Shown here: positions 2,992-35,765 of the stretch, piece after piece | Position numbering within the stretch: position 1 is the stretch's first letter | How the letters are laid out: each line of letters opens with the position of its first letter | DNA from: Dokdonella sp. | GTDB lineage: Bacteria; Pseudomonadota; Gammaproteobacteria; Xanthomonadales; Rhodanobacteraceae | Assembly (NCBI RefSeq): GCF_019634845.1 | Contig: NZ_JAHCAQ010000023.1 | Coordinates: 1 to 37,753 of the forward strand | Length of the DNA stretch: 37,753 bases | Direction of reading: 5' to 3' | Notes under the pieces: model-generated | The model's database searches: none | Told to the model about the DNA's origin: nothing | Seen by the model: the letters and a program-made list of their open reading frames with translations, nothing else | Program-made: the position numbers and the translations under genes

Positions 2992-3345
2992 CGCTCGACC
3001 CCGGGCGCCGGCAGCGCGCCGCCACGGCCACCGCGCATGCACACGCAGGGCGCAGTCGTTGCAGGATGCGGGCTGGCGGCGGCGAGGCTCATCGCGCCGC
3101 ATGGTAGCCGATGCCGGCGCGCCGCCGCACAGTCCTCATGTGGCGCCGCGGCATATCCTGAGAGCGCACCGACTGTTGCACCGACGCGACGCCGCGCTCG
3201 ATGCGCAAGTGCTTGATCCGTTGACAGGCACGCTGGCCGGTCGCGCTCGCGGCCGTGCTGGCTGGCGCACTCGCCGCGCGCGCGGGAGCGGTTTTCGCCT
3301 ACGCTAGGCACACCCGGACACGCCCTGCCCCAGCCGACGGCCCAC
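2992..3345. other. Divergent intergenic region, 354 bp
   Basis: This region separates the start of the SLC13 permease (minus) from the AI-2E-family gene (plus). A TACGCT -10-like hexamer at 3300-3305 could serve the plus-strand gene, but no matching -35 is visible. I see no RNA gene, palindromic operator or protein-like frame with sensible start and composition. Confidence 0.4.
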
Positions 3346-4511: not shown

Positions 4512-6488
4512 TCACTCGGCCAGCATCGCCGCCAGCCGCGCCAGGTGGGCGCTGGCCATTTCCTGCTTGCGCGCCGCGTCCTGCGCGGGGTCATGGCCAA
4601 CGCGATGCAGATCGTCGGCGGGCAGTTCCTTGAGGAACCGGCTCGGTTCGTTGGCGATGATTTCGCCGAACCGCTTGCGGCGTCTGGCATACGACAGGGT
4701 GAGGAACTCCTTGGCGCGCGTGATGCCGACGTAGAGCAGGCGCCGCTCCTCTTCGAGACGCCCCTCCTCGAGGCTGCCCTCGTGCGGCAGCGTCGTGTCG
4801 TCGACGCCGACGAGGAACACGCAGCGGAACTCGAGCCCCTTGGCGGCGTGCAGCGTCATCAGCCGCACCGCATTGCCCGGATCGTCGCGGTCGCCGTGGG
4901 TCAGCAGTGCGAGCTGCGCGGCAAGATCGCCCGCGCCGTGGCTGGGCATGGCGCGCATCCACTCGACGAGCTCGCGCAGGTTGGCCAGGCGCCGCTCGCG
5001 CAGCGCCGCGTCCTTGACCTGGCCGGCGACATGCTCGGCGTAGCCGATGCGCTGCATGAGTTCGTCGACGAGATCGGCGGCCGGCATGCGCTGCGCGCGC
5101 GCGGCGAACTCGCCGATGAGCTGGCCGAAGCGCACCAGGCTGGCCGCGGCACGCGGCGTGAGCGGAGTCAGCAGCGCGTCGTACTGCAGCGCACGCAGCA
5201 TCGACAGCCCGCGCGTGCCGGCCAGTTCACCGAGCCGCTCGAGCGTGGTGGCGCCGATGTCGCGACGCGGCAGATTGACCACGCGCAGGAAGGCCGCATC
5301 GTCGTCGGGATTGGCGATCAGGCGCAGGTAGGCGAGCAGATCCTTGACTTCGGCGCGATCGAGGAAGGCGGTACCGCCACTGACGTGGTAGGGCACGCCG
5401 ACCAGCCGCAATGCCTTCTCGAACGCGCGCGACTGGTGGTTGCCGCGATAGAGGATCGCAAATTCGCTCCACGCCACCTTGTGCTGCTGGGCGAGGTGCA
5501 CGACGGCAGCGGCCACGCACTCGGCCTCGTGCTCGTCATCGCGGCACTCGGTCACGCGGATCGGCGCGCCTTCGCCCTGCTCGCTCCACAGCCGCTTGTC
5601 GAACAGGTGGCCGTTGTGCGCAATCACCGCGTTGGCGGCGCGCAGGATGCGCCGCGCGCAGCGGTAGTTCTGTTCGAGCTTGACCACGCGCAGGGCCGGA
5701 TAGTCGCGCGCCAGTTCGTTGAGGTTGTCGGGGTTGGCGCCGCGCCAGGCATAGATCGACTGGTCGTCGTCGCCAACCACGGTGAACGCGCCCCGCTCGC
5801 CGGCCAGTGCCTTGATGAGGCGGTACTGGGCGGCATTGGTGTCCTGGTATTCGTCGACCAGCAGGTAGCGCAGGCGCTCGCGCCACGCCGCCCGCACCTC
5901 CTCGTCCGCCTCGAGCAGGCCGAGCGGCAGGCGGATGAGGTCGTCGAAGTCGACCGCATTGAATGCGGCGAGGCGGCGTTGGTACGCGGCGTAGATCGCC
6001 GCCGCCTCGTGCTCGCGCACGCTGCCCGCGCGGGCGGCGGCCTGTTCGGGCGTGAGGCCGTCGTTCTTCGCGCGTGACAGCAGTGACTGCAGCGCAAACA
6101 GCGCGTCGGGCTTGCTGTTGGCCGGCGCGAGCTCCTTGATGAGGCCACGCGTGTCGTCGGCATCGAGCACCGAGAAGCCGCGCCTGAGCTTCGCGCGCTC
6201 GTGTTCGAGCTGCAGGAAGCGCAGGCCCAGCGCGTGGAAAGTGCACACGGTGAGGCCATCGGCCGCGTCGCCACGCAACAGGCGACCGGCACGTTCGCGC
6301 ATCTCGCGCGCCGCCTTGTTGGTGAACGTGATCGCGGCGATCTTGCCCGGCGCAAGGTTGCGCCGCCCGATCAGGTGCGCGATCTTCTCGGTGATCACGC
6401 GCGTCTTGCCCGAACCGGCCCCGGCCAGCACGAGCAGGGGCCCGTCGCAGTAATCGACGGCGGCGCGTTGTTGGGGATTGAGTGACAT
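4512..6488 (-). CDS. rep: ATP-dependent DNA helicase Rep (UvrD/Rep superfamily 1)
   Basis: A 3'-5' superfamily 1 helicase of 658 residues, close to the 673 of E. coli Rep. Visible motifs are Walker A GAGSGKT (23-29), motif Ia AITFTNKAAREM, motif II DEYQDT (212-217), motif III VVGDDDQSIYAWRGA, motif IV EQNYR, motif V VRLMTLHAAKGLEF and motif VI RLLYVGITRAKE. Rep clears proteins from DNA ahead of replication forks through contact with DnaB. Against UvrD, the Rep call rests on length, the MSLNPQQRAAV start and the FLDRAEVKDLLAYLRL stretch. It is downstream of yajQ on the same strand, but a terminator-like hairpin lies between them. Confidence 0.93.
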   Translation of the reverse strand: MSLNPQQRAAVDYCDGPLLVLAGAGSGKTRVITEKIAHLIGRRNLAPGKIAAITFTNKAAREMRERAGRLLRGDAADGLTVCTFHALGLRFLQLEHERAKLRRGFSVLDADDTRGLIKELAPANSKPDALFALQSLLSRAKNDGLTPEQAAARAGSVREHEAAAIYAAYQRRLAAFNAVDFDDLIRLPLGLLEADEEVRAAWRERLRYLLVDEYQDTNAAQYRLIKALAGERGAFTVVGDDDQSIYAWRGANPDNLNELARDYPALRVVKLEQNYRCARRILRAANAVIAHNGHLFDKRLWSEQGEGAPIRVTECRDDEHEAECVAAAVVHLAQQHKVAWSEFAILYRGNHQSRAFEKALRLVGVPYHVSGGTAFLDRAEVKDLLAYLRLIANPDDDAAFLRVVNLPRRDIGATTLERLGELAGTRGLSMLRALQYDALLTPLTPRAAASLVRFGQLIGEFAARAQRMPAADLVDELMQRIGYAEHVAGQVKDAALRERRLANLRELVEWMRAMPSHGAGDLAAQLALLTHGDRDDPGNAVRLMTLHAAKGLEFRCVFLVGVDDTTLPHEGSLEEGRLEEERRLLYVGITRAKEFLTLSYARRRKRFGEIIANEPSRFLKELPADDLHRVGHDPAQDAARKQEMASAHLARLAAMLAE

Positions 6489-8262: not shown

Positions 8263-8943
8263 ATGGCCAAGCTGTATTTCTATTATTCGGCGATGAACGC
8301 CGGCAAGACCACGACGCTGCTGCAGAGCGCGTACAACTATCACGAGCGCGGCATGCGCACGCTCATCGTCAAGCCCGCGATCGACACGCGCGCCGAGGAC
8401 TCGCCGCAGGCGCCCGAGGCGGACGAGGCCGTGCCGCTCGGTGTGGTGGCCTCGCGCATCGGCCTGCGCGCGCGGGCGCGTCGCTTCGCTCAGGACGATG
8501 ACCTGTTCGCGATCGTGCGCGCCGATGTCGCCGCCCGCGGCAAGCTCGACTGCGTGCTGGTGGACGAGGCGCAGTTCCTGCGCAAGGCACAGGTGTGGCA
8601 GCTCACCGACGTGGTCGACGCGCTGCAGGTCCCCGTGCTCGCCTACGGCCTGCGCACCGATTTCCGCGGCGAACTGTTCGAAGGCAGCCAGTACCTGCTG
8701 GCCTGGGCCGACAACCTCATCGAGATCAAGACGATCTGCCACACCGGCCGCAAGGCGACCATGGTGGTGCGCGTGGACGAGCATGGCCGCGCGGTGACCG
8801 ACGGGCCGCAGGTTGAAATCGGTGGCAACGAGCGCTACGTGTCGGTGTCACGCCCCGAGTTCAAGAAGATCATGGCGGGCGAAGGCCGCGTCGAGCTGCA
8901 ACAGGCGGTGCTGCCGCTGGACATGCCTGGAGAGACTCGATGA
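8263..8943 (+). CDS. tdk: Thymidine kinase, type II
   Basis: A 226-residue cytosolic enzyme that phosphorylates thymidine to dTMP with ATP in the salvage pathway. It shows the type II hallmarks: [18 protein letters not shown] with the P-loop near the N terminus, LVDEAQFL with the Walker B Asp and catalytic Glu, the [19 protein letters not shown] block, and [15 protein letters not shown], the substrate-binding lasso region. The zinc site looks degraded. E. coli Tdk has CFCG and SVCRKHY at these places, whereas here they read CHTG and SVSRPEF. An insertion relative to E. coli ([17 protein letters not shown]) follows the IDTR segment. The ATG at 8263 begins the family N terminus. The stop overlaps the next start (ATGA). 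Confidence 0.93.
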
Positions 8944-9707
8944 CGACACCCCATTGGCCGCGTGGACGCTGGCAGGACAGCGGCGGCGAAGCATTCTGGC
9001 TGTGGTTCGTGTTCGGCGATTTCGCCGCCGACCTGCGCATCGACGCCCAGCGCTACCGCACCGGGCCGCCACCGACCGGCGTCGAAGCCGTGCGCTACCG
9101 CAACGCCGCGCTCGCGCAGTGGGACGGCTATCCGCTGGCCGGCACGCTCGGCGCGATCTTCGAGGAGGAAAACCCGCGCCTGCTCGATGCCGCGCGCAAA
9201 TCCACCGAGTGCTGGATGCTGCGCGGCAGCCTGCGCGACCCAGCCGATCTCGACGGCCTGCGCAACATGATCGGCACCATCAGCGCGCTGTGTGACCAGG
9301 GTGCGGTGGCCGTGGTCGATCCGCAGATGCTGTCGCTGTTTGCAGCGGACGAATGGCAGCGGCGCTACTTTGCCCGCGACGCTTTCCATGCGCGCGACCA
9401 CGTGCTGATCCTCGCCGACACCGACCCCGCCGATGCCTCGCGCATGCGCGTGCACACGCGCGGCCTGCGCAAGTTCGCCCGCGCCGACCTCGACATCCGC
9501 AACGTGCCGCCGGCGCTGACCCAGCACGCCGGCGAGCTGGCGCAGGGCTTCGTCGAGTTTCAGTGCGACGGCGGCGTGGTCGCCGATGGTCACGCGGTGG
9601 CGCTCGGTGACGACGGCCAGCAGCTCGTGGCCACGCTCATCGACGATGCCGGCGATGCCGATTTCAACAACCGTCACCTGCGCCTGCGCTGGCCCGAGCG
9701 GGACTGA
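8940..9707 (+). CDS. Conserved hypothetical protein, translationally coupled to tdk
   Basis: I do not recognise this 255-residue protein with confidence. It has no signal peptide or membrane segment and looks like a soluble, acidic alpha/beta protein. Distinct blocks are [18 protein letters not shown] (about 75-92), [20 protein letters not shown] (about 120-140), [20 protein letters not shown] (about 170-189), and the end [14 protein letters not shown]. The [10 protein letters not shown] and HTRGLRKF blocks recall DUF4261-type proteins, but this is only an impression. Its ATG overlaps the tdk TGA as ATGA, so it is made from the same message. Codon use matches its neighbours. Confidence 0.75.
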
Positions 9708-24232: not shown

Positions 24233-25231
24233 TCAGGCGCCGCGATCGCTGCGCAGTGCCTGCTGGCGCCGCCGGTCGCCGGCGGCACCGCGCCCGACCA
24301 GCATGCCGAGCGCAACGATGCCGACCACCACGAGCAGTGCACCGACGGCCGACCCGCCGCGCGGCATCGACTCGCCCAGCAGCAGCACCCCGAACGCACT
24401 CGTGAACAGCAGTTCGGCGGCTTGCATCGCCTCGACCGCGCCGAGTGCCGCCGGCTGGTCGCGCACGAGACCGGTGGCATGGAAGAACAGGATCGTCGCG
24501 ACCACGCCCGTCAGCAGTGCCACGCCGGCCGCCAGCGTCATCTGCAGCGGCGGCGGCGGTCCGGCCTGTTGCCAGGCGTAGACCGCGACCAGCCACCAGA
24601 ACGGCTGGCTCGCCAGCGTCATGCCGAATACGCGCTCGGTGGCGTCGAGGGTCTCGCCGCTGCGTTCCAGGTGCAGCAGGATCGCGCGATTGCCCAGCGG
24701 ATAGAGCGTGGCCGACAGCGCCACCAGCAGCAGCGCGAGCCACGCATCGCGATCGAGCTGACCATGGAAATGCGCGCCCTGCATCAGCGCCACGCCAAGC
24801 ACGATGAGGGCGCCGAGCGCGAGCGCCGCGCGTGGCAGTCGCGCGCGCTCGTCGCGGTACAACAGCGGACCCAGCAGCATGCCCGCGACCACGGTGAGCT
24901 GGAAGGTGCCGGCCACCAGCCAGGCCGGCGCGTGCGCGGCGCTCCAGGTCAGACACACGCAGAACAGGCCGAAGCCCACCGTGCTCCACAGCAGCCAGGC
25001 GCGCGGCTGCGCCCGCAAGGCCGACCAGACGCGGGCGAAGCTGCCGCGCCAGCCGATCACCAGCCACAGCAGCGGCAGCGTGAACAGGTAGCGCAGCGCC
25101 GCCGACCACGCCCAATGGCCGCCGGCGCTGGCCATGGCGCGATTGAGCACATAGGTCGAGGTGAAGAACAGCGCGGAGGCAAGGCCGAGCAGCACGGCTT
25201 GCAGTTCCCGCCGCGGCGCGCGTCCGCTCAT
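24233..25231 (-). CDS. EmrE-like multidrug efflux family transporter (DMT superfamily)
   Basis: A 332-residue inner-membrane protein with about ten hydrophobic segments in two EamA-like halves (for example LLGLASALFFTSTYVLNRAMASAGGHWAW, LWSTVGFGLFCVCLTWSAAHAPAWLVAGTFQL, and VEAMQAAELLFTSAFGVLLLGESMP). This pattern fits the multidrug resistance efflux transporter family PF13536 (EmrE-like); DMT members carry metabolites and drugs. Its ATG overlaps the bioC stop as ATGA, making it the last gene of the biotin run. It could move biotin, a precursor or an unrelated compound; nothing in the sequence decides. Confidence 0.85.
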   Translation of the reverse strand: MSGRAPRRELQAVLLGLASALFFTSTYVLNRAMASAGGHWAWSAALRYLFTLPLLWLVIGWRGSFARVWSALRAQPRAWLLWSTVGFGLFCVCLTWSAAHAPAWLVAGTFQLTVVAGMLLGPLLYRDERARLPRAALALGALIVLGVALMQGAHFHGQLDRDAWLALLLVALSATLYPLGNRAILLHLERSGETLDATERVFGMTLASQPFWWLVAVYAWQQAGPPPPLQMTLAAGVALLTGVVATILFFHATGLVRDQPAALGAVEAMQAAELLFTSAFGVLLLGESMPRGGSAVGALLVVVGIVALGMLVGRGAAGDRRRQQALRSDRGA

Positions 25232-26103
25232 CGACGCACGCGACTGCCACGCAGGCTGGCCAGCGAAAAGCTCGCCACGTCGACGCCGGCATTGCGCACG
25301 GGATGGCCCGGATCGGGCGCCAGCGCACGCGCATACACGACTTCGTAGGTGGCCGGCAGGCGACCGCCGACACGGAAACGCTCGTAAGCGGCGGCGACGC
25401 GCTCCAGATGCTGCTTGCCGGTCAGCTGCCGGCTGCGCTCGCGATCGGCGTTGGTGGCGCCGATCGCGCGCAGGTCGCACATCAGCGCGTGCAGGTCGCT
25501 GTAGGTCAGCGTCAGATCCTCGCGTCCCATCACCGGATCGCGGAAACCGCTCATCAGCAGGCCATCACCGATGTCGTGCATGTCGATGAAGCGGCTCACA
25601 TGCGGCATCGCGTCGACCGCCGCGAACGCGCTGCGCAGCTCGTGCAGCGTGTCGGGGCCAAAGGTCGAGAACACGAGCGTGCCGCCCGGGCGCAGCACGC
25701 GACGGAACTCCGCCATCACGCTGCCGGGGTCATCGCACCATTGCAGGCACAGGTTGGCGTGGATCAGGTCCACGCTGGCCGCCGCCAGCGGCAGCGCCTG
25801 GGCATCGCCCGCCACGCAGGCATAGGCCTGCGGCGCGCCGGCGCGGCCTGCGGCCACGCGCAACATCGGCAGCGCGATGTCGAGCGCGATGACCTGCGCC
25901 AGCGGCCAGAGTTCGTGCAGGGCCAGTGCGCCGGCCGCGGGACCGCAGCCGACATCGAGGATCAGCTGCGGCTCCAGCGCGGCGTCGAGCTGTTCGCGCA
26001 GACGGCGACCGATTTCGGCCTGCAGCACCGCATTGGCCTCGTAGCGGGCGGCAGCGCGGCCGAATGCGCGCCGCACCTGCCTCGGATCGAGTCCCGCACT
26101 CAT
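25228..26103 (-). CDS. bioC: Malonyl-ACP O-methyltransferase BioC
   Basis: A 291-residue SAM-dependent methyltransferase that masks the free carboxyl of malonyl-ACP, so the fatty-acid enzymes can build pimeloyl-ACP for biotin. Class I SAM motifs are clear: motif I LILDVGCGPAAGAL (about 50-62), the acidic VIALDIALPML, then AGDAQALPLAAASVDLIHANLCLQWCDD and the LRPGGTLVFSTFGP block that is typical of BioC. The N terminus VRRAFGRAAARYEANAVLQ is the BioC signature. Start and stop both overlap neighbours as ATGA (bioH upstream, the DMT transporter downstream). Confidence 0.93.
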   Translation of the reverse strand: MSAGLDPRQVRRAFGRAAARYEANAVLQAEIGRRLREQLDAALEPQLILDVGCGPAAGALALHELWPLAQVIALDIALPMLRVAAGRAGAPQAYACVAGDAQALPLAAASVDLIHANLCLQWCDDPGSVMAEFRRVLRPGGTLVFSTFGPDTLHELRSAFAAVDAMPHVSRFIDMHDIGDGLLMSGFRDPVMGREDLTLTYSDLHALMCDLRAIGATNADRERSRQLTGKQHLERVAAAYERFRVGGRLPATYEVVYARALAPDPGHPVRNAGVDVASFSLASLRGSRVRR

Positions 26104-26867
26104 GCCGCAAGCTCCTTCGTGAACTGGATGATCGCCGCGGCGATCGCCTCGGCATGACTGATGAATGGCGCGTGGCTGCTGTTGAGCTGCAGGTAGTGTG
26201 CCCGCGGCGCCTGCTGCGCCGCCCATTGCATCGCTGCCGGCGGCACCAGCCGATCACGCCGCGCCGCCAGCCACAGGCTCGGCATCACCAGCATGGACAG
26301 CTGCTGGCGCAGATCGACGGCCTCGAGGATGCGCAGTCCATCCTGCAGCGCGGCCAGGCTCGGTACGCCGCGCTCGAACACCTGTGCGCGCAAGCCGCGC
26401 AATTCTACCTGCGCCTGGGCCGAACCGAGCGTCTCCAGGGCAAGGAAACGCTCGATCACGCTGCGGTAGTCGAGCGCCAGTTCGCCGGCGAAACCATGCA
26501 GCACGTCGGCCGACACGCCATGCGGCCAGTCGGGCGCCGCCACGAAGCGCGGGCTCGATGCGATCAGGCCCAGGCCGCGTACCTGCGCGGCATGCGCCAG
26601 CGCCGCGTGCAGCGCCACGCTGCCACCGAGCGACCAGCCGACCCACACCGCGCGCGGCGTGGCGGCGGCAATCGCGCCGGCGGTGTCGGCCAGCTCGAAT
26701 CGACCCAGCGCATGACTGTGGCCATGTCCGGGCAGATCGACCACGTGCAGGCGGAAGTGACCGGCCAGCGCGTCGATGAGCGGACCGAAGATGCCACCAT
26801 GCATTGCCCAGCCGTGCAGCAGCACGAGATCGGGACCATCCCCCAAGGTGGCGATGTACGGCTTCAT
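26100..26867 (-). CDS. bioH: Pimeloyl-ACP methyl ester esterase BioH
   Basis: A 255-residue alpha/beta hydrolase, the length of E. coli BioH (256). It removes the methyl group from pimeloyl-ACP methyl ester, ending BioC protection. The triad is Ser79 (VGWSLGG), Asp205 (ARRDRLVPP) and His232 (NSSHAPFISH). The oxyanion loop LLHGWAMHGGIF is the typical BioH variant. It lies between the DUF7079-like gene and bioC with ATGA overlaps on both sides. Confidence 0.94.
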   Translation of the reverse strand: MKPYIATLGDGPDLVLLHGWAMHGGIFGPLIDALAGHFRLHVVDLPGHGHSHALGRFELADTAGAIAAATPRAVWVGWSLGGSVALHAALAHAAQVRGLGLIASSPRFVAAPDWPHGVSADVLHGFAGELALDYRSVIERFLALETLGSAQAQVELRGLRAQVFERGVPSLAALQDGLRILEAVDLRQQLSMLVMPSLWLAARRDRLVPPAAMQWAAQQAPRAHYLQLNSSHAPFISHAEAIAAAIIQFTKELAA

Positions 26868-27268
26868 GCAGCGCCCTCTGCCGCCGGCCGCGACTCGACC
26901 GCGGCCGCGGCACGGGCGCGCTCGATGCGTGGCGCCAGCAGGCGCCACAGCAGGCGCACGAAACGCCGGCCGCAGAATGGCCACGGTCGCAACCCGCGCG
27001 CGCGCCTGCGATTGGCGATGATGCACTGTTCCAGCCAGCTCTGGTCGAAGCGATCCCACACCCCCGCGGTCGCGCACAGGTTGAGCACGAGCACGGGATG
27101 GATCTCGTCGAACAGGATCGCGCGCAGCTCGTCGAGCGAGTAGTGCGAGCACGCAAGCGTACGCGCGGTGCTGCGCACCAACGGCCGCCACGGCACATCC
27201 AGATACAACTCCGAAAGCGCCTCCCACACCGGCCGGCGCGCCACCGGATCGAACCCCTCGCCGCTCAT
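26864..27268 (-). CDS. DUF7079-like protein inside the biotin operon
   Basis: A 134-residue soluble protein. The RRPVWEALSELYLDVPW start, the SHYSLDELRAILFDEIHPVLVLNL middle and DQSWLEQCI segment match the small DUF7079 family as I recall it. The C-terminal third is a basic extension (RRRARGLRPW, then RRFVRLLWRLLAPRIERARAA). The function is unknown. Its ATG overlaps the bioF stop and its stop overlaps the bioH start (both ATGA), so it is translated together with the biotin enzymes. It might be a regulator or accessory factor of biotin synthesis, or simply carried in the operon. Confidence 0.8.
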   Translation of the reverse strand: MSGEGFDPVARRPVWEALSELYLDVPWRPLVRSTARTLACSHYSLDELRAILFDEIHPVLVLNLCATAGVWDRFDQSWLEQCIIANRRRARGLRPWPFCGRRFVRLLWRLLAPRIERARAAAAVESRPAAEGAA

Positions 27269-28449
27269 GCAAGCACCTTGCGCAGCGTATCGAGCAGCTG
27301 CTCGACCTGTGCTTGCGTATGCAGCGCCGACAACGTGACGCGCAGCCGCGCCTGGTCGCGCGGCACGGTCGGCGGTCGCACCGCGGGCACGTGGAAGCCG
27401 GCCTCGCGCAGGCGCGCGGCAGCGCCGAGCGCCGCCTCGCTGCTGCCGACCCGCAGCGGCTGGATCGCGGTGGGCGAAGCGAGCACGGCCAGGCCACGCG
27501 CGCGCGCGCCGGCGCGGAACTGCTCGATGCGCGCCGCCAGCGTGCTGCGCCGCTCCGCATCGCCGCGCGCGAGATCGATCGCCACGCAGGTCGCGGCAGC
27601 CAGCGCGGGTGGCAGCGCGGTGGTGTAGATGAACGAGCGCGCCTGCTGCACGAGGCCGTCGATGAGCTCGGCACTGCCGGCGACGAAGGCGCCGAACGTG
27701 CCCAGCGCCTTGCCGAGCGTGCCCATCAGCACGGGGACTTCGCGCTGACCGAGCCCGGCCCAAGCGAGGCTGCCGCCACCGTCGGCGCCGAGCACGCCGA
27801 GCCCATGCGCATCGTCGATCATGCACAACGCGGCCTGCGCCCGGCACAGCGCGGCCAGTTCGCGCAAGGGCGCGATGTCGCCATCCATGCTGAACACGCC
27901 GTCGCTGGCCAGCAGGGCGGCGGCCTGCGGCTGCGCGTCGAGTTGGCGTGCGGCGCCTTCGACATCGGCGTGCCGGTAGCGGCGCAACGTGCAACCGGCC
28001 AGCTGCGCGCCATCGATGAGGCTGGCGTGGTTGAGCCTGTCCTGCACGCACAGGTCGCCGCGTGCGAGCAATCCCGCCAGCACGCCGAGATTGGCCATGT
28101 ATCCGGTCGAGAACAGCAGCACCCGCTCGCGACCGAGCCACTGCGCGAGACCGTGCTCGAGCCGTGCATGTTCGTCGCGGTGGCCACCAAGCAGGTGGGC
28201 CGCGCCAGCGCCGACGCCGACAACGCGCGCGGCGCGGCCCAGCGCCTCGATCAGCGCCGGATGACGCGCCAGACCGAGATAGTCGTTGCTGGCGAAATCG
28301 AGCAGGCGGTGGCCGTCATCGACCACCCATGCACCCCCCGTCGCGACATCGACATCGAGCACATGCAGGCGGCGCAGCAGCTGCGCGGCGGCGCGCTCGC
28401 GCTGGCGCGCGGCGAGGCGCTCGAGCAGATCGGCGCGAATCACGGTCAT
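27265..28449 (-). CDS. bioF: 8-amino-7-oxononanoate synthase BioF
   Basis: A 394-residue PLP-dependent alpha-oxoamine synthase that joins L-alanine to pimeloyl-ACP in the first ring-forming branch of biotin synthesis. PLP-binding Lys247 lies in GTLGKALG, and the FASNDYLGLA, GGHRDEHARLE and DDAHGLGVLG motifs are in order. The start codon (MTVIRADLL) lies 5 nt beyond the stop of the upstream kinase gene, so the two are probably on one transcript, and no separate promoter is evident. Downstream it overlaps the DUF7079-like gene (ATGA). Confidence 0.95.
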   Translation of the reverse strand: MTVIRADLLERLAARQRERAAAQLLRRLHVLDVDVATGGAWVVDDGHRLLDFASNDYLGLARHPALIEALGRAARVVGVGAGAAHLLGGHRDEHARLEHGLAQWLGRERVLLFSTGYMANLGVLAGLLARGDLCVQDRLNHASLIDGAQLAGCTLRRYRHADVEGAARQLDAQPQAAALLASDGVFSMDGDIAPLRELAALCRAQAALCMIDDAHGLGVLGADGGGSLAWAGLGQREVPVLMGTLGKALGTFGAFVAGSAELIDGLVQQARSFIYTTALPPALAAATCVAIDLARGDAERRSTLAARIEQFRAGARARGLAVLASPTAIQPLRVGSSEAALGAAARLREAGFHVPAVRPPTVPRDQARLRVTLSALHTQAQVEQLLDTLRKVLA

Positions 28450-28454
28450 CGGCG

Positions 28455-30923
28455 TCAGCGCTGGGGCGCGGCGCCGCGTCGGACCGCGGCGTCCTGCGCG
28501 GTCAACGCGGCGTGCACGCGCGCGGGACCGCTGCGCAACAGGGCCACGGCTTCCTGCGCGTCGTCGTCGAGCATTTCGGGCACCAGTGCGACCTGCGCCG
28601 CAGCCTCCTCGAACAGGCGCAGTGCATCGTGCAGCAGGGTCAGGCGCATGGCCGCGGCCACATCGCGCTCGCCACTGCGGCGTAGCTCGAACTCGGCCTT
28701 GAGCGTGTCGAACCAGGCGCGCGTGAGGTGGAACTGTCGCTGCCGCGCGAGCTCGGCCGGCAAACCTTCGAACAATCGCGCCACCTCCGCCAACGCCTGC
28801 AGCTGCGGCGCGGCCGGCGAGCCGGCGCGCGCCTCCATCTGCACTTCCTGCAGCCGCGCGACGATGCGGTTCACCGCGGCGATGGGCTGCGCCGGATCCA
28901 GGCGCAGCAGCTCACGATCGATCTCGCGCCGTCGTTGGTAATGGGCGCGCGCCGCGTCGAACTGGCCACTGCGCTCGGCCATGCGCGCCGCGATGCCGGC
29001 GGCGCTCGCGGCGTTGACCAGGTGGCGCAGGTCCTGCGGGTGGCGCGCCAGCAACGATTCCTGCACCTGCAGCCCGCGCTCGGCTGCGACCAGTGCCTTG
29101 GCCATGTGCTCCGGGTCGGCGTCATCGCCGGCGTGACTGTAGGCGCGGAAGCTCAGCGCGCTTGCGAGCAGGCCGTCAGCGGCCACGCGCTCGGCCTCGG
29201 TCGAGGCGAGTGCACGCGCCCGTTCACAGGCGGTGCCGGCTTCGGCATACAGCGCCGCGCTCTGCGCTGGCGACAGGGCCGCATCCGCCGCGCGCGCCTG
29301 CACGTAGAGGGCCCCGCCGCGCGCGATGGCAAGCGCAAAGGTTTCGTCGGCCGCAGGCGCGGCGCGCGCGAGTGCCGCCGCACGTGCGAGCGTGGCTTGC
29401 GCCGCGGCACCCTGCTGGGCATCGGCCTGCGCGTCGCCAAGCTCGGTCAGCGCGCTCAGTCGCAAGGCCTGCGCATGGGCTTGCGGGGCGACGAGTCGAT
29501 CGGCATGGTCGACCGCCGCCAGCGCGCGTTCGGCCGTCGCGATGCGCTCGGCGGGAGGCGCGTACATGCGCTTGCGGATTTTGGCCAGCGAGGCGTAACC
29601 GGTGGCGATGTCGAGCAACAGCTCGGGATTGTCGCCGCTGTCGGCGGCGAGCCGATCGAGGTACTCCACGCCGGTGTCGAGCAGGGTGCGCTGCGCCTGG
29701 CTGGTGCCCGGCACGTCGACGATCTGCTGGAACACGGTGCCGATGAAGCGGTTGGCCAGATCCCGCACGCCGGCGAAATGCCGCGCCGCGCGCGCGGCCT
29801 GGAGGCGCGCCTCGTGGGCCTGTTGCAGCGCATAGCTCCAGCTCGCCAGCATGATGCCGACCGCGAGCGCCGCCAGCGCCACCGCGCCGCGATGGCGGCC
29901 CACGAACTTGCGCATCCGGTACCACCGCGTCACGCGCGCGGCACGCACCGGGCGCCCTTCACGATAACGCTCGAGGTCCTCGCGCAGCGCGCTGGCGCTC
30001 GCGTAGCGGTCCGCGGGATCGGCCGCGGTGGCCTTGACGATGATGCCGCCAAGCTCGGCATCGAGCGGCAGCGCGGCTGGTGCGTCGCGACCGACCCCCT
30101 CACCGGCGATGAGTTCGCGCAGCAGCACGCCGAGGCTGTAGATGTCGCTGGCCGTGGTGATGGCGCGGCCTTCGCGCTGCTCGGGACTCGCGTAGCCGAG
30201 CGTGAACACGCGCGTGGAGGTGTCGCGGCGCGCCTGCCCGGTATCGAGGTCGAGCAGGCGCGCAATGCCGAAGTCCACCAGCTTGACGTCACCGCCCGTG
30301 GTCACGAGGACATTGGCCGGCTTGATGTCGCGGTGGATCACGAGCCGCTGGTGAGCGTGGCCGACCGCATCGAGCACCGCATCGAACAACGCGAGGCGTT
30401 CGCGCAGCCGCGGCGCATGCGTCGCCGCATGGGCCAGCAGCGGCAGGCCGTCGACGTATTCGAGTGCGAGCCACGGCTGGCCATCCGCCGTCTCGCCGCC
30501 ATCGAGCAGGCGTGCGATGTGCGGATGATCGAGGTCGGCGAGGATCTGCCGCTCGTGGCGCAGCCGCTGCAGGCCCTCGCGGGTGGGAAAGCCGCGCAGC
30601 AGCTTGATCGCCACGCGTTGCGCAAAGCCTCCATCGACGCGCTCGGCGAGAAACACCGTGCCCATGCCGCCGACGCCGATCTCGCGCAGCAGGTGCCACG
30701 GCCCGAGGCGCTGCACGCGCGTGGCCATGAGATCGCCGGCGCTGTCGGCCAGCACTTGTGCCAGCGGGTCGCCGGCGTCGGTATCGGCCGTGAGCAGGTC
30801 GCGCAGCAGATCGCGCTCGCGCGGCGACAACGGCAGTGCAGCCAGCGCCGCCTCATGCTGCTCCAGCGGCAGCAGCCGCAGCCGCTCGAAGTGCTCGGCG
30901 TAGCGGTCCAGCGGCGTATTCAT
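28455..30923 (-). CDS. Transmembrane Ser/Thr protein kinase, copy 1
   Basis: An 822-residue membrane kinase. A helical head (1-70, with RYAEHFERLRLLPLEQ) precedes the Hanks-type kinase domain (about 77-321): GVGGMG glycine loop, VAIK Lys107, HRDIKP catalytic Asp199, DFG Asp217 and YASPEQ, all intact. One membrane helix (about 347-366) follows, then a long C-terminal, mostly helical region (370-822) with TPR-like alanine-rich repeats, probably periplasmic. The VRDLANRFIGTVFQQIVDVPGT block is shared with the other copy. Start overlaps the sigma factor stop (ATGA); bioF follows 5 nt after the stop. Substrate is most simply the partner ECF sigma factor, which is inference. Confidence 0.92.
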   Translation of the reverse strand: MNTPLDRYAEHFERLRLLPLEQHEAALAALPLSPRERDLLRDLLTADTDAGDPLAQVLADSAGDLMATRVQRLGPWHLLREIGVGGMGTVFLAERVDGGFAQRVAIKLLRGFPTREGLQRLRHERQILADLDHPHIARLLDGGETADGQPWLALEYVDGLPLLAHAATHAPRLRERLALFDAVLDAVGHAHQRLVIHRDIKPANVLVTTGGDVKLVDFGIARLLDLDTGQARRDTSTRVFTLGYASPEQREGRAITTASDIYSLGVLLRELIAGEGVGRDAPAALPLDAELGGIIVKATAADPADRYASASALREDLERYREGRPVRAARVTRWYRMRKFVGRHRGAVALAALAVGIMLASWSYALQQAHEARLQAARAARHFAGVRDLANRFIGTVFQQIVDVPGTSQAQRTLLDTGVEYLDRLAADSGDNPELLLDIATGYASLAKIRKRMYAPPAERIATAERALAAVDHADRLVAPQAHAQALRLSALTELGDAQADAQQGAAAQATLARAAALARAAPAADETFALAIARGGALYVQARAADAALSPAQSAALYAEAGTACERARALASTEAERVAADGLLASALSFRAYSHAGDDADPEHMAKALVAAERGLQVQESLLARHPQDLRHLVNAASAAGIAARMAERSGQFDAARAHYQRRREIDRELLRLDPAQPIAAVNRIVARLQEVQMEARAGSPAAPQLQALAEVARLFEGLPAELARQRQFHLTRAWFDTLKAEFELRRSGERDVAAAMRLTLLHDALRLFEEAAAQVALVPEMLDDDAQEAVALLRSGPARVHAALTAQDAAVRRGAAPQR

Positions 30924-31486
30924 GCCTCGAGCGCGGTCTTGAGCCAGGCGCGTGCGAGGCGCAGGTCGCGGTCGACCGTGCTTTCCGACAGATCGAGCGC
31001 GGCGGCGACCTCGAGCCGACTGAGACCGCCGAAGTAGACCAGCTCGATGATCTGCGCGCGGCGCGCATCGCTGCTGGCCAGGTCGCGCAGCGCGTCGTCG
31101 ACACGCAGCAGTTGCCGGTCGCTGTCGGGCGTGGCGACGGCCGATGCTTCGTCGAGCCGGACGCGTTCGACATCGCCGCCGCGCTTGCCGGTGAGGCGCT
31201 TGCGCGCGGCGTCGACCAGCACCTGGCGCGTGGCCTGCGCGGCGACATGGAAGAAATGGCGCCGGTCGGCCAGCGCGAGTTCGCTGCCGAGCAGGCGCAG
31301 CAGTGCCTCGTGGGCGAGGTCGGTGGCGCTGAGCGTGGCACCCGGCATCGCCCGCAGCGACTGCGCGGCGATTGCGCGCACGTTGGCATAGACCCGTTCC
31401 ACCAGCCGCTCGCGGGCCTGCGCGTCGCCCGCGTGCCAGGCGTCGAGCAGTTGCGTGATGTCGTGGTCGGCAGGCGGCTGGGTCAT
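30920..31486 (-). CDS. ECF sigma factor, copy 1 (SATD type)
   Basis: A 188-residue ECF sigma factor with sigma-2 and sigma-4 domains. Region 2.2 reads LSATDLAHEALLRLLG, where SATD (53-56) replaces the acidic DAED of standard ECFs, with Thr55 at the Glu position. Sigma-4 reads IIELVYFGGLSRLEVAAALDLSESTVDRDLRLARAWL. It resembles the TIGR02999-type ECF family linked to Ser/Thr kinases. The start MTQPPADH (31486) fits the other copy; no Shine-Dalgarno is visible and TAGAAT lies 7 nt upstream. The stop overlaps the kinase start (ATGA). Confidence 0.92.
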   Translation of the reverse strand: MTQPPADHDITQLLDAWHAGDAQARERLVERVYANVRAIAAQSLRAMPGATLSATDLAHEALLRLLGSELALADRRHFFHVAAQATRQVLVDAARKRLTGKRGGDVERVRLDEASAVATPDSDRQLLRVDDALRDLASSDARRAQIIELVYFGGLSRLEVAAALDLSESTVDRDLRLARAWLKTALEA

Positions 31487-31493
31487 GGCAGGG

Positions 31494-31499
31494 ATTCTA
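31494..31499 (-). promoter_or_regulatory. -10-like TAGAAT directly upstream of sigma copy 1
   Basis: TAGAAT on the minus strand ends 7 nt before the ATG, in a cgctagaat context shared with sigma copy 2. Transcription from it would begin at or near the A of the ATG, giving a leaderless message, which fits the missing ribosome binding site. No -35 match is visible 17 bp upstream. Confidence 0.45.
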
Positions 31500-31533
31500 G
31501 CGGTGGGTTCGCCGCGCCGGCGCGCGACGGTCT

Positions 31534-34104
31534 TCAACGCTCGCCCAGCGCGGCGAGCGAAGCTCGCGCCCGCGCCGGGCCGGTGTGCAGCAGGTCGAGC
31601 ATCTCGGGGGCGGCGCCATCGACGAGTTCGGGCACCTGTGCCAGCAGCACCTGCGCCTGCTCGAATGCGGCCAGCGCGGTGCGCGCAAGCGCGCGACGCT
31701 CGTTGCCGGTCAGGTCCGGCTCGGCGCTGCGGCGCAGGCTGAACTCGGCCTTGAGCGTATCGAACCAGGCCCGCACCGCGACTCCCTGGCGCTGGTCGAG
31801 CAGACCCGCCGGCAACGCCGCGACGAGCGCGTCGATCTGCGCGACTTCGACCAGTTGCGCGCGCGGCGCGGCCCCGGCCAGCAGCTCCATCTCCAATTGC
31901 TCGAGCCGTCGCGCCAAACGGTTGATCGCCGCCGTGGGCTGGTCGGGGTCGCGCAGCTGCAGCAGCTCGTCGTGGTGACGCGCCTTGGCGTAGTACTGGC
32001 GGGCCAGCGCGTACTGCCGTTCCTTGCCAGCGATCGACGCCGCCGTGGTCGCAGCCAAGGTTGCATTGACGAGCCCGCGCAGATCATTGGGCCGATGTGC
32101 CAGAAAGGTTTCGTACGCCTGCAGCGCCTGCCCGGCAAGCTGCAGCGCCTTGACGCGGTGCTGCGGGTCGGCGACAGCCTCGGCCTGGGCGCGTGCCATG
32201 AACAGCAGGGCGTTGGCATCGGCGTTGGCGACTGCATCGCGCTGGGTCGGCGTGAGCGTGTCGGCCAGCATCGCCGCGTATCCGGCGCGCGCGCGTTCGA
32301 ACAGCGCGAGACTGTCGGTCGGTGTCAGGCCGACATTGGTGGCCTTGGCGTACTCGACCAGCGCGTTGGCCAAGGCGCCGCGCGCCATGACCGTGGTGGG
32401 CGCCCCCACCTCCGCCGGCGGCGCGGCGATGGCCGCCCTGAAATGGCGGGCGGCGGCGTCGAACTGCTGGGCATCGGCGTTGCTGCCGGCGAGCGCGACG
32501 AGGGCATTGCGCCGCATGGCCCAACCATCCTCGTCGGCTGGCGCGAGACGATCGGCACGATCGAGCAGAGCCAGCGCTTGTTGCGCACTGGCGGCACGCT
32601 GCGCCGGGGTGACAAACATGCGTTCCTGGATGCCCGCCAGCGTGATATAGCCGCTGGCCGCTTCGAGCAGCAAGGCATGATTGCCCTCGGTATCGACGAC
32701 GAGCCGGTCGAGGTACTGCAGACCGGTATCGAGCAGCAACTGCTGGGCATCGGCGGTGCCCGGCACGTCGACGATGCGGTCGAACACTTCGCCGACGAAG
32801 CGATTGGCCAGCATGCGCACGCTGGCAAAGTGTTGCTCGGCGCGTGCGGCCTGTCGGTCGGCCAGTTGCGCCTGGCGTAGCGCATACGCCGACAACGCGA
32901 GCAGGGCCAGCACCGCGACGCTGCCGAGCGCGACGCCGAGGCGATTGCGCGCGATGAACTTGCGCAGGCGGTAACCCGCGCTCGGCACGCGCGCGTGGAC
33001 GGGCCGGTTGGCGAGATGGCGACGGATGTCCTCGGCCAGTTGTGCCGCGCTGGCGTAGCGTCGCGTGGGCTCCTTGCGCAGCGCCATCAGCACGATGTTG
33101 TCGAGGTCGCCGCGCAGCTCGCGCTGCAGGCGCCGCAGATCCAGTGCCGATGGATCGCCCGCGCCGGTCACGGCCGCGCGCGAAGTGAGACTCTGGCTCG
33201 GGCGCAGCGGCGGGGTCGTCACGATTTCACGCACGAGCTCGGCCAGCTGCGTCTTGTCGGCCTGGTACGGACTGCGCCCACTCAGCATGCGGTACAGCAG
33301 CACGCCAAGCGAGTAGATGTCGCTGGCCGTGGTGATCGGCGCGCCGTTGACCTGCTCGGGGCTGGCGAACTCGGGCGTGAAGGCATTGAGCGTGACCGAC
33401 TCGGCGGCGGTGGCCGGATCGGTGAGCCGCGCGATGCCGAAATCGAGCAGCTTCACGTTGCCGCTGGCGTCGACGAGGATGTTGCCGGGCTTGAGGTCGC
33501 GATGCACCACCAGGTGCTGGTGCGCGAACTGCACCGCGGCGCAGACGTCGAGGAACAGCGCCAGCCGTGCCGGCACGCCGAGTCCGTGTTCGATGCAGTA
33601 GCGGTCGATCGCCACGCCATCGACGTATTCCATCACCAGATAGGGCACGCCGGCGGCGCTGGCGCCGCCATCGAGCAGGCGGGCGATGTGCGGGTGGTCG
33701 AGGTTGGCGAGGATCTGGCGTTCGCGTTCGAAACGCTGCACCGCTTCGTGCCCGACCAGGTGGCTGCGGATCAGCTTGATCGCCACGCGCTGCTCGAAGC
33801 CACCTTCGACGCGCTCGGCGAGCAACACCGTGCCCATGCCACCGCTGCCGAGTTCGCCGACCACGCGATACGGTCCGATGCGCTGCGCAGCCGTATCGGT
33901 CACCCCGGCCGCACCGAGTCCGACCACGCGCATGAGCGGATCGTCGAGCTCGGCGGCGGCATCGGCGGCGAGCAGGCGGCGCAGCGTGGCGCGATCGGCC
34001 TCATCGAGCGGCAGCGCGGCCAGCGCCGCCTCGCGCGCATCGACCGGCAGGCTGCGCAGGCGCTCGAAATCGTCGGCGTAGCGATCGAGCGATGCGGCGG
34101 TCAT
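31534..34104 (-). CDS. Transmembrane Ser/Thr protein kinase, copy 2
   Basis: An 856-residue paralogue of the other kinase. Head (1-78, RYADDFERLRSLPV), kinase domain (about 79-365) with GSGGMG, VAIK Lys110, HRDLKP Asp203, DFG Asp221 and FASPEQ intact, membrane helix (about 388-408), and a C-terminal helical region (410-856) beginning QAARAEQHFASVRMLANRFVGEVFDRIVDVPGT. An extra segment (about 288-335) absent from copy 1 lies within the kinase C-lobe. It is translated from the same message as sigma copy 2 (ATGA overlap). Catalytic residues suggest an active kinase; the extracytoplasmic part may sense a signal. Confidence 0.92.
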   Translation of the reverse strand: MTAASLDRYADDFERLRSLPVDAREAALAALPLDEADRATLRRLLAADAAAELDDPLMRVVGLGAAGVTDTAAQRIGPYRVVGELGSGGMGTVLLAERVEGGFEQRVAIKLIRSHLVGHEAVQRFERERQILANLDHPHIARLLDGGASAAGVPYLVMEYVDGVAIDRYCIEHGLGVPARLALFLDVCAAVQFAHQHLVVHRDLKPGNILVDASGNVKLLDFGIARLTDPATAAESVTLNAFTPEFASPEQVNGAPITTASDIYSLGVLLYRMLSGRSPYQADKTQLAELVREIVTTPPLRPSQSLTSRAAVTGAGDPSALDLRRLQRELRGDLDNIVLMALRKEPTRRYASAAQLAEDIRRHLANRPVHARVPSAGYRLRKFIARNRLGVALGSVAVLALLALSAYALRQAQLADRQAARAEQHFASVRMLANRFVGEVFDRIVDVPGTADAQQLLLDTGLQYLDRLVVDTEGNHALLLEAASGYITLAGIQERMFVTPAQRAASAQQALALLDRADRLAPADEDGWAMRRNALVALAGSNADAQQFDAAARHFRAAIAAPPAEVGAPTTVMARGALANALVEYAKATNVGLTPTDSLALFERARAGYAAMLADTLTPTQRDAVANADANALLFMARAQAEAVADPQHRVKALQLAGQALQAYETFLAHRPNDLRGLVNATLAATTAASIAGKERQYALARQYYAKARHHDELLQLRDPDQPTAAINRLARRLEQLEMELLAGAAPRAQLVEVAQIDALVAALPAGLLDQRQGVAVRAWFDTLKAEFSLRRSAEPDLTGNERRALARTALAAFEQAQVLLAQVPELVDGAAPEMLDLLHTGPARARASLAALGER

Positions 34105-34667
34105 GCCCGCAATGCCGTCTTGAGCCAGGCTCGCGCCAGGCGCAGGTCGCGATCGACCGTGCCTTCCGACACCGCCAGCGCCAGCGCCACCTCGCTGCGG
34201 CTGAGGCCGCCGAAATAGACCAGCTCGACGACCTGCGCGCGGCGCCCATCGTCAATGGCGAGCTCGTGCAGCGCCTCGTCGATGCGCAGCATCTGCTCGT
34301 CACGCTCGGGCGACGGCAGTCCCTGTGCATCCTCGAGTTCGACGTGCAGCGCGCCACCACCGCGCTTGTCGGCCAGCCGCCTGCGCGCTGCGTCGACCAG
34401 CACCTGACGCGTGGCCTGCGCGGCGACGCGATAGAAATGCTGGCGATCGTTCCAGCCCAGCTCGTTGCCGAGCAGGCGCATCAGAGCCTCGTGGGCGAGA
34501 TCGGTGGCACTGAGGGTGGCCGACGGCATCGCACGCAGCGACTGCGCGGCGATCGCGCGCACGTTACGGTACACGCGCTGCATGAGCACCTCGCGCGCAT
34601 GCACGTCACCTTCGCGCCAGGCGGCAAGCAGGTGGGTGATCTCATGATCGCCGGGAGCCGCACTCAT
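34101..34667 (-). CDS. ECF sigma factor, copy 2 (SATD type)
   Basis: A 188-residue paralogue of the other sigma factor with the same length and numbering. Region 2.2 again reads LSATDLAHEALMRLLG, with Thr55 in SATD; sigma-4 reads VVELVYFGGLSRSEVALALAVSEGTVDRDLRLARAWL. The two copies differ mainly in the linker (residues about 95-130). The start MSAAPGDHEITHLL (34667) has no ribosome binding site but has TAGAAT 6 nt upstream. It begins 90 bp after the bioB stop and overlaps the kinase gene (ATGA). Confidence 0.92.
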   Translation of the reverse strand: MSAAPGDHEITHLLAAWREGDVHAREVLMQRVYRNVRAIAAQSLRAMPSATLSATDLAHEALMRLLGNELGWNDRQHFYRVAAQATRQVLVDAARRRLADKRGGGALHVELEDAQGLPSPERDEQMLRIDEALHELAIDDGRRAQVVELVYFGGLSRSEVALALAVSEGTVDRDLRLARAWLKTALRA

Positions 34668-34673
34668 GCGCGC

Positions 34674-34679
34674 ATTCTA
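34674..34679 (-). promoter_or_regulatory. -10-like TAGAAT directly upstream of sigma copy 2
   Basis: TAGAAT on the minus strand ends 6 nt before the ATG, inside the nine bases cgctagaat shared with the other sigma gene. As there, a leaderless transcript is suggested. No good -35 is visible. Confidence 0.45.
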
Positions 34680-34757: not shown

Positions 34758-35765
34758 TCACGCCGCGGCACTGCCGCAATCACAGCCGCAGGCCCCAGCG
34801 GAGGCGGCTGCGTCCGGCCCCGGCAGGGCATGCACGCCGAGCCGGGCGAACAGGGCGCGGTCGCGCTCGATGGCGGGATTGGCAGTCGTGAGCAGCCGCT
34901 CGCCGTGGAAGATCGAATTGGCACCGGCGAACAGGCACAGAGCCTGCAATTCGTCGCTCATCTGCTCGCGGCCCGCCGACAGGCGCAGCATCGAGGCCGG
35001 CATGAGGATGCGCGCCGCCGCCACCACACGCACGAATTCGAACGGATCGAGCTCGACCTGCCCGGCCAGCGGCGTGCCGGCGACGCGCACGAGACGATTG
35101 ATCGGCACCGAATCCGGGTGCGCCGGCAGCGTCGCCAGCGCCTGCAGCAGGCCGGCGCGTTCGGCGCGCGTCTCGCCCATGCCGATGATGCCGCCGCAAC
35201 AGGTCCGGAGGCCGGCCTTGCGCACGTGGCCGAGGGTGTCGAGCCGGTCCTGGAACCCGCGCGTGTGGATGATCTGGCCGTAGTACTCGGGCGCGGTGTC
35301 GAGATTGTGGTTGTAGTAGTCGAGGCCGGCCTGCTTGAGCGCATGCGCCTGGGTCTGGCTCAGCATGCCAAGCGTGGCGCAGGTCTCCAGGCCCAATGCC
35401 TTCACCGCGCCGATCATCGCCGCCAGCTTGGGGAGGTCGCGGTCCTTGGGTGAACGCCATGCCGCGCCCATGCAGAAGCGCGTGGCGCCGGCGGCCTTGG
35501 CCGCGCGGGCGTTGTCGAGCACCCGCTCGAGTTCCATCAGCGCGGTCGCTTCCACACCGGATTGGTAGCGCTGCGCCTGCGGACAGTAGGCGCAATCCTC
35601 GGGGCAGCCGCCGGTCTTGATCGACAGCAGGGTCGACACCTGCACCGCATTGGGGTCGTGATGCGCGCGGTGCAGCGCGTGGGCGCGCGCGAGCAGGTCG
35701 GCAAACGGCAGGTCGAGCAGGGCGAGGATCTCCTCGCGCGTCCAGTCGTGGCGAATCTCGGCCAT
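34758..35765 (-). CDS. bioB: Biotin synthase BioB
   Basis: A 335-residue radical-SAM enzyme that inserts sulfur into dethiobiotin. The [4Fe-4S] cysteines are C54, C58 and C61 ([13 protein letters not shown]). The [2Fe-2S] ligands lie in [16 protein letters not shown] and [12 protein letters not shown], and the Arg of the cluster in the [12 protein letters not shown] block. The [10 protein letters not shown] motif is diagnostic. The C terminus has an unusual cysteine-rich tail (GACGCDCG). ATG 35765 gives the usual N terminus; ggaag lies about 7 nt upstream. It is divergent from comF and lies just upstream of the two sigma/kinase pairs. Confidence 0.95.

Follow-up and report, generated by a model that had tools for sequence, protein, structure and literature searches.

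Gene organization of the locus

The window analysed here is a stretch of 37,753 nucleotides of Dokdonella sp. DNA (assembly GCF_019634845.1, contig NZ_JAHCAQ010000023.1). It contains two tandem gene pairs, sigma1-K1 and sigma2-K2, each encoding an extracytoplasmic function (ECF) sigma factor and a transmembrane Hanks-type kinase. On the minus strand the gene order is bioB, sigma1, K1, sigma2, K2, bioF, bioH, bioC (Table 1). The four-gene module sits within the biotin operon, between bioB and bioF, a placement absent from the preliminary description of this DNA. Our analysis indicates that the module probably comprises two ECF43-type phospho-switches from one sigma clade, with related inputs and overlapping outputs.

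The module genes are separated by gaps of 90 bp (bioB-sigma1), 47 bp (K1-sigma2) and 5 bp (K2-bioF), and a 4-bp ATGA overlap joins each sigma gene to the following kinase gene, as already described. This overlap was the most frequent spacing among the sigma-kinase pairs collected in this study (28 of 62), a count biased in its favour because start codons were chosen for closeness to such an overlap. Residue numbers of sigma2 run from the ATG at 31486 and not from the TTG at 31537, a mechanical open reading frame (ORF) start. The module is one of an expanded set in its own genome (G000), which yielded 15 matches to PF07638 (14 with at least 115 bits) and 24 kinase matches, one of these under the cut-off. 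Another expansion site of the same genome (L024, G000:C6:9500-23500) holds two ECF43 sigma genes and three kinase genes within 14 kb.

Sigma factors and the conserved threonine

Both sigma factors match TIGR02999, which we take to be ECF43, at 180 bits against a cut-off of 126, as well as PF07638, likewise far over its cut-off, and are classed as ECF43-type on the basis of these profiles. The alignment recommended in the preliminary description comprised 34 sigma factors of the clade, 12 other ECF43 sigma factors of the own genome and one orthologue of EcfK, the partner of the kinase PknS in Xanthomonas citri. The genome that supplied the orthologue encodes a kinase with 99% identity to the sequence of the solved structure 9EED, and the orthologue's residues Y29, R33, Q49, T51, E52, H55, T104, T106, S108 and S110 fit the published numbering. 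Threonine occupies the EcfK T51 position in all sequences compared, i.e. in 34 of 34 clade sigma factors and in all 12 paralogues. The residue right after it is acidic in every one of the 34 (24 D, 10 E) versus none of the 12. Four clade loci added later (L057, L065, L071, L074) all carry E at the EcfK T106 position, and in the three whose sequence includes the motif, threonine is followed by an acid. All 37 clade sigma factors in which the motif is covered thus have the threonine. Positions 53 and 54 vary within the clade, whereas Thr55 is invariant. Residues Y33, R37 and H59 of the two sigma factors match EcfK Y29, R33 and H55. A lone ECF43-like sigma gene (L042 in G036, 8545-9150), adjoining a Hanks kinase gene, has the motif DSTE, with an acid on both sides of the threonine.

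The preliminary description had correctly located SATD at residues 53-56 of both proteins and had regarded the acidic motif as lacking. Compared with DAED/DxxD, the first D is indeed replaced by S and the E by T, but D56 is retained and matches EcfK E52. Phospho-activation of such sigma factors has been published for EcfP/PknT and EcfK/PknS (PMC8999054, PMC13147305), and the mechanism of EcfP is described in PMC8999054 and PMC8103513; these papers are cited here from the available excerpts. Thr55 aligns with EcfK T51 and, by motif, with the threonine of EcfP. This speaks for Thr55 as the site of the switch, as had been proposed, and not for a strict requirement, D56 lying beside it. The claim that these sigma factors need a negative charge at the motif was overstated, given the presence of D56 and the functional T51A mutant of EcfK (PMC13147305). 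At the four EcfK linker phosphosites (T104/T106/S108/S110), sigma1 reads H/E/E/A and sigma2 R/R/D/A. Since none of these is Ser or Thr, the linker sites cannot be used by the two proteins, and Thr55 appears to be the sole known phosphosite remaining in them.

The aspartate at position 56 and acids in the linker could let the sigma factors act without phosphate, in which case the kinases would tune them through a different site or have some other protein as their target. Such constitutive competence is compatible with the acid at position 56, shared by the whole clade and by none of the paralogues, with E or D at the EcfK T106 position in 26 of the 34 clade members (S in 2 of the 34), and with the function retained by EcfK T51A. 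We nevertheless consider it quite unlikely, as Thr55 is invariant next to variable positions and EcfK T51E raised target expression in a kinase-null background (PMC8999054). An acid at that position is retained in 15.8% of ECF43 sigma factors (PMC13147305).

Mosaic structure of the kinases

Both kinases keep all catalytic residues, as stated before. The motifs are GSGGMG at residue 86, AIK at 108, HRDLKPGN at 201, DFG at 221 and TPEFASPE at 243 in K1, and GVGGMG at 83, AIK at 105, HRDIKPAN at 197, DFG at 217 and TLGYASPE at 241 in K2. Glycine loop, lysine, HRD, DFG and SPE are intact together with the threonine preceding SPE, which in K1 bears the same number as Thr243 of PknS (PMC13147305). 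Features of Hanks-type receptor kinases are present in both proteins, with a membrane helix recognized by hydropathy and a presumed orientation. The best solved-structure match of K1 was 9EED (364 residues, 'Kinase domain protein'), aligned to K1 residues 6-364 with the N-terminal extension included; PMC13147305 names 9EED and describes the structure of PknS 1-364.

Kinases associated with this sigma clade differ in their catalytic cores (A or B) and periplasmic sensors (alpha or beta). In the kinase-domain tree K2 grouped with the A kinases (100/97), and K1 with kinases of G010 (G010_Kb), G008 and g9 (100/98). Residues 110-270 of the K1 core are 68-70% identical to the g9 B kinases, compared with 54-57% for the A kinases shown. 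Its residues 1-76 share 52-63% identity with five A kinases with alpha sensors (G004, G009, G010_Ka, G011, G019), 45% with that of G015 and 30% with that of G029, versus 17-24% with three g9 B kinases. Approximately unbiased (AU) tests rejected a grouping of the K1-type core with A (p 0.028) and of the K2 core with B (p 0.008). Grouping of the K1-type N-terminal extensions with the g9 B rows gave p 0.059, above the threshold of 0.05. The shift in resemblance lies after residue 106 or 109 in K1 and after 107 in G010_Kb, at VAIK. In K2, resemblance to A gives way to resemblance to B where the membrane helix begins (after residue 347 or 352), and in G002_K2 it does so after 348. For G002_K1 the best split was at 149, identities to A and B being close from 111 onward. 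K2 is the usual catalytic domain of the clade, joined at the membrane helix to a foreign periplasmic domain. K1 combines the N-terminal extension typical of the clade with a different catalytic core and a foreign periplasmic domain of the same type as in K2.

The closely matched duplication of the preliminary description did not hold, as only 130 of 188 residues of the sigma factors, 92 of 166 of the kinase cores and 222 of 462 of the sensors are identical and the kinases are mosaic. A simple tandem duplication of one pair was also rejected: K1 and K2 belong to different clades by their kinase domains, and the K2 sensor belongs to the beta rows (100/100 branch). In G010 the order is bioB-sigma-K(A,alpha)-K(A/B,beta)-bioF, with one sigma gene and two kinase genes. 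The order found in the window could, as one possibility only, have arisen from such a unit by duplication followed by two deletions. In all three g9 loci the B-beta kinase gene is at least 1.5 kb away from the nearest sigma gene. A separate pair at L041 (G008:C187, 2446-5513) appears to reflect yet another domain exchange within the genus: its sigma factor reads QPTE, and the adjoining kinase combines a beta sensor with a core belonging to neither the A nor the B clade.

Mirror-tree comparisons were based on 62 pairs found from 96 sigma ORFs, 49 of them non-redundant. Sigma distances correlated with those of the N-terminal extension (r 0.81) and of the kinase (r 0.84), so that the extension was not singled out; partial correlations were 0.49 and 0.62, respectively (each 0 of 2000 permutations). 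We regard it as a rather doubtful idea that the extension is a sigma-docking module, behind which A or B cores and alpha or beta sensors were exchanged while the extension stayed A-type by this sigma clade. Domain exchange would then have given rise to new sigma-kinase wiring and captured the pimeloyl branch (bioFHC) as a co-expressed output. In any case, the combinations A-A-alpha, A-B-beta and A-A-beta of extension, core and sensor beside one sigma clade in related genomes form a natural domain-swap set. With three kinase builds adjoining one sigma clade, it could be possible to separate the parts that govern sigma choice from those for catalysis and for sensing.

Periplasmic sensor domains

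A 100/100 branch in an unrooted tree of 21 sensor rows, built without G008 and G029, separates 12 alpha from 9 beta sensors, and both K1 and K2 are of the beta type. Alpha sensors are tetratricopeptide repeat (TPR) domains in all four cases scanned (PF13424, E 8e-26 to 5e-17). Among the five beta sensors scanned, the strongest TPR match had an E value of 0.012, and the sensor of K1 matched nothing in Pfam at E 1. A single family comprising alpha and beta sensors was rejected, with a profile comparison probability of 2.5%.

Beta sensors were detected in 6 of 81 genomes. In the set of 398 genomes, 27 gave matches and full-length beta sensors occurred in 5, to which G008 is added from the 81-genome set. 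The view of beta as a wholly new domain is weakened because 22 of these 27 hold partial matches only, mostly to the first ~50-200 residues and in other long open frames.

With 222 of 462 residues identical and an order of the beta sensors that is not firm, the K2 sensor is not favoured as a recent copy of that of K1. In the sensor tree, K2 lies with the alpha rows on one side of a weak branch (73/79), which we take to reflect attachment of the long alpha branch (3.13) near K2. A constraint keeping K2 among the other beta rows was not rejected (p 0.30). The ratio of nonsynonymous to synonymous substitution rates (dN/dS) between G000 and G002 was 0.41 for the K1 sensor and 0.63 for the K2 sensor, compared with 0.14 and 0.20 for the sigma factors and 0.22 for bioF; the kinase domains of K1 and K2 gave 0.22 and 0.18, respectively. 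Sigma factors and kinase domains are under purifying selection between these genomes, and inputs diverge faster than outputs. In a comparison of the window with L001, i.e. of two close species, periplasmic identity was 49% for K2 versus 70% for K1, and that of the kinase domains 85% versus 87%.

Association with the biotin operon

Among 16 genomes of the genus, 13 including the own genome encode BioF at 61% identity or more, and G001, G009 and G014 are without such a BioF. A kinase gene directly precedes bioF in 7 of the 13 (G000, G002, G004, G005, G008, G010, G011); in G008 the contig ends soon past the kinase gene, so that no sigma gene is visible there. In the other six (G003, G006, G007, G012, G013, G015) bioB precedes bioF within about 320 bp. 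According to the starts as read by us, the kinase stop overlaps the bioF ATG by 1 base in G004, G005 and G011, and lies 5 bp from it in G000 and G002 and about 40 bp in G010 and G008. The gap between bioB and the sigma gene measures 3.9 kb in G005. In G011 and G004 it contains an opposite-strand frame, by eye resembling an NADH dehydrogenase and a DNA methyltransferase, respectively, which makes read-through from the bioB promoter unlikely in these genomes. The uptake of these unrelated genes (L002, 1854-3585, and L004, 383-2745) suggests that the bioB-bioF gap may be an insertion-prone spot.

In G012 and G013 a sigma-kinase pair is located between hemF and polA (genes named by eye), and both hemF/polA flanks are common to the site of the pair in G007, G015 and two records of metagenome-assembled genomes (MAGs). 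In the biotin-type genomes G010 and G011, hemF and polA are adjacent without the pair; polA was not found in the stretch fetched for G000, G002, G004, G005 and G008. In G003, G006, G009 and G014, hemF-polA is likewise without the pair, and no copy at the biotin locus was seen. An ancestral hemF/polA site with a subsequent move to the biotin operon is plausible.

A neutral insertion without regulatory meaning would fit both the other genes found in the bioB-bioF gap of G004 and G011 and the occurrence of the same sigma-kinase pair between hemF and polA. We hold this to be possible, if somewhat doubtful, since five of the seven genomes have the kinase stop overlapping the bioF start or 5 bp away from it, with BioF identities as low as 70%. 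The vitamin pathway may be tied to a phospho-switch.

Each sigma gene seems to have its own leaderless-type -10 box, TAGAAT, and a scan of both strands of the window gave the pattern TANAAT-N5-7-RTG only at these two sites. A -10-like box 6-7 bases before the sigma start was also present in G002 (both genes), G004, G005, G009, G010 and G011, and before one of 12 paralogous sigma genes of the own genome (on C26). It was absent before the second kinase gene of G010 and in two loci of D. fugitiva.

Comparison with known systems

The phospho-switch type itself is already known, while the placement in the biotin operon and the mosaic composition of both kinases look new; no paper on this sigma-kinase/biotin arrangement was found in the open-licence PMC literature. 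The ECF43 system EcfK/PknS of X. citri resembles the pairs described here in the sigma gene directly before a transmembrane kinase gene, in threonine followed by an acid (QATE in EcfK, SATD here), in the N-terminal extension of the kinase and in the lack of an indel between motif and linker. It differs in its Ser/Thr linker phosphosites, in its setting, a type VI secretion cluster as opposed to a biotin operon with two tandem pairs, and in the sensor, PknS having three TPRs (PMC13147305). EcfP of the ECF43 system EcfP/PknT (Vibrio parahaemolyticus) likewise has threonine as the third residue of its motif, STTA (PMC8999054), but lacks the acid, and this likeness is by motif only, not by alignment. 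Single pairs in Dokdonella and Tahibacter share the sigma clade and the K2-type N-terminal extension and catalytic domain. They differ in their alpha (TPR) sensors and in occurring as one pair per site outside the biotin operon.

Proposed mode of action and cross-talk

In each kinase, the N-terminal extension and Hanks domain are predicted to lie in the cytoplasm and to be linked by a single membrane helix to the periplasmic domain. In the presence of a signal the kinase would phosphorylate Thr55 in region 2.2 of the sigma factor, and the phosphate would add charge beside D56 and allow binding to the beta' clamp of RNA polymerase. The sigma genes may be transcribed from their own housekeeping -10 boxes, with presumed read-through into bioFHC.

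Sigma1 and sigma2 are identical at 29 of 32 positions in region 2.2, 21 of 27 in regions 2.3-2.4, 24 of 29 in the helix-turn-helix of region 4.2 and 7 of 23 in the linker. Activation by each kinase of its own sigma factor, as assumed in the preliminary description, is not favoured: because region 2.2 is near-identical and K1 and K2 share the type of N-terminal extension, cross-phosphorylation is at least as likely. Two insulated channels, in which each kinase phosphorylates only its overlapping partner, would be in accordance with the 4-bp overlaps and the divergent kinase cores and sigma linkers. We judge them improbable on account of the similarities just named and of G010, where one sigma gene stands with two kinase genes at the same place. 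As both kinases carry a beta domain and face a near-identical sigma surface, the pairs probably answer related signals, cross-phosphorylate in part and drive overlapping promoters; from these sequences we expect overlapping regulons and some cross-phosphorylation.

Besides the T51A mutant and the acids discussed above, several points weigh against two phospho-switches with overlapping outputs. The sigma region boundaries were drawn by us, and the linker, with few shared positions, indicates that regulation of the two sigma factors may differ. The sigma tree resolves neither sigma1 and sigma2 as nearest kin nor the biotin-locus sigma factors as one clade. The TANAAT pattern was picked after its sites had been seen, and 50 first-order Markov windows, with a mean of 0.22 sites, reached a maximum of 2, so that at least one equalled the observed number. 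Furthermore, bioFHC could have an internal promoter.

Further features of the window

Table 1. Genes, domains and motifs of the module and the adjacent biotin genes, with positions in the window.
Feature	Position	Strand	Evidence
sigma1, ECF43-type sigma factor, 188 aa	34101..34667	-	TIGR02999 180.5 bits (cut-off 126), PF07638 147 bits
SATD motif of sigma1, S53-D56; predicted phosphosite Thr55	34500..34511	-	sequence, alignment
K1, transmembrane Hanks kinase of 856 aa with A-type N-extension, B-type core and beta sensor	31534..34104	-	PF00069; best PDB match 9EED, E 3.4e-49
K1 residues 1-107, A-type N-terminal extension and N-lobe start	33784..34104	-	identity to A kinases
K1 membrane helix and beta-type periplasmic domain, from residue 391	31537..32934	-	sequence comparison
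sigma2, ECF43-type sigma factor, 188 aa	30920..31486	-	TIGR02999 180.4 bits, PF07638 150 bits
SATD motif of sigma2	31319..31330	-	sequence, alignment
K2, transmembrane Hanks kinase of 822 aa with N-extension and catalytic domain of the A type and a beta sensor	28455..30923	-	PF00069; breakpoint after residue 347 or 352
K2 membrane helix and beta-type periplasmic domain, from residue 348	28458..29882	-	sequence comparison
TAGAAT box, 6 nt before sigma1 ATG; putative leaderless-type -10	34674..34679	-	
TAGAAT box, 7 nt before sigma2 ATG; putative leaderless-type -10	31494..31499	-	
bioB, biotin synthase, inferred start	34758..35765	-	TIGR00433 393 bits
bioF, 5 bp after K2 stop	27265..28449	-	TIGR00858 442 bits
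bioH, inferred start	26100..26867	-	TIGR01738 277 bits
bioC, inferred start	25228..26103	-	TIGR02072 212 bits

Eight further open frames of the window had no NCBIfam match at 1e-8 in the same scan. The frame at 4512-6488 matched a Rep-type DNA helicase (TIGR01074, 881 bits, under the cut-off of 951), and that at 1231-3102 a DASS-family transporter (122 bits, under the cut-off of 199).

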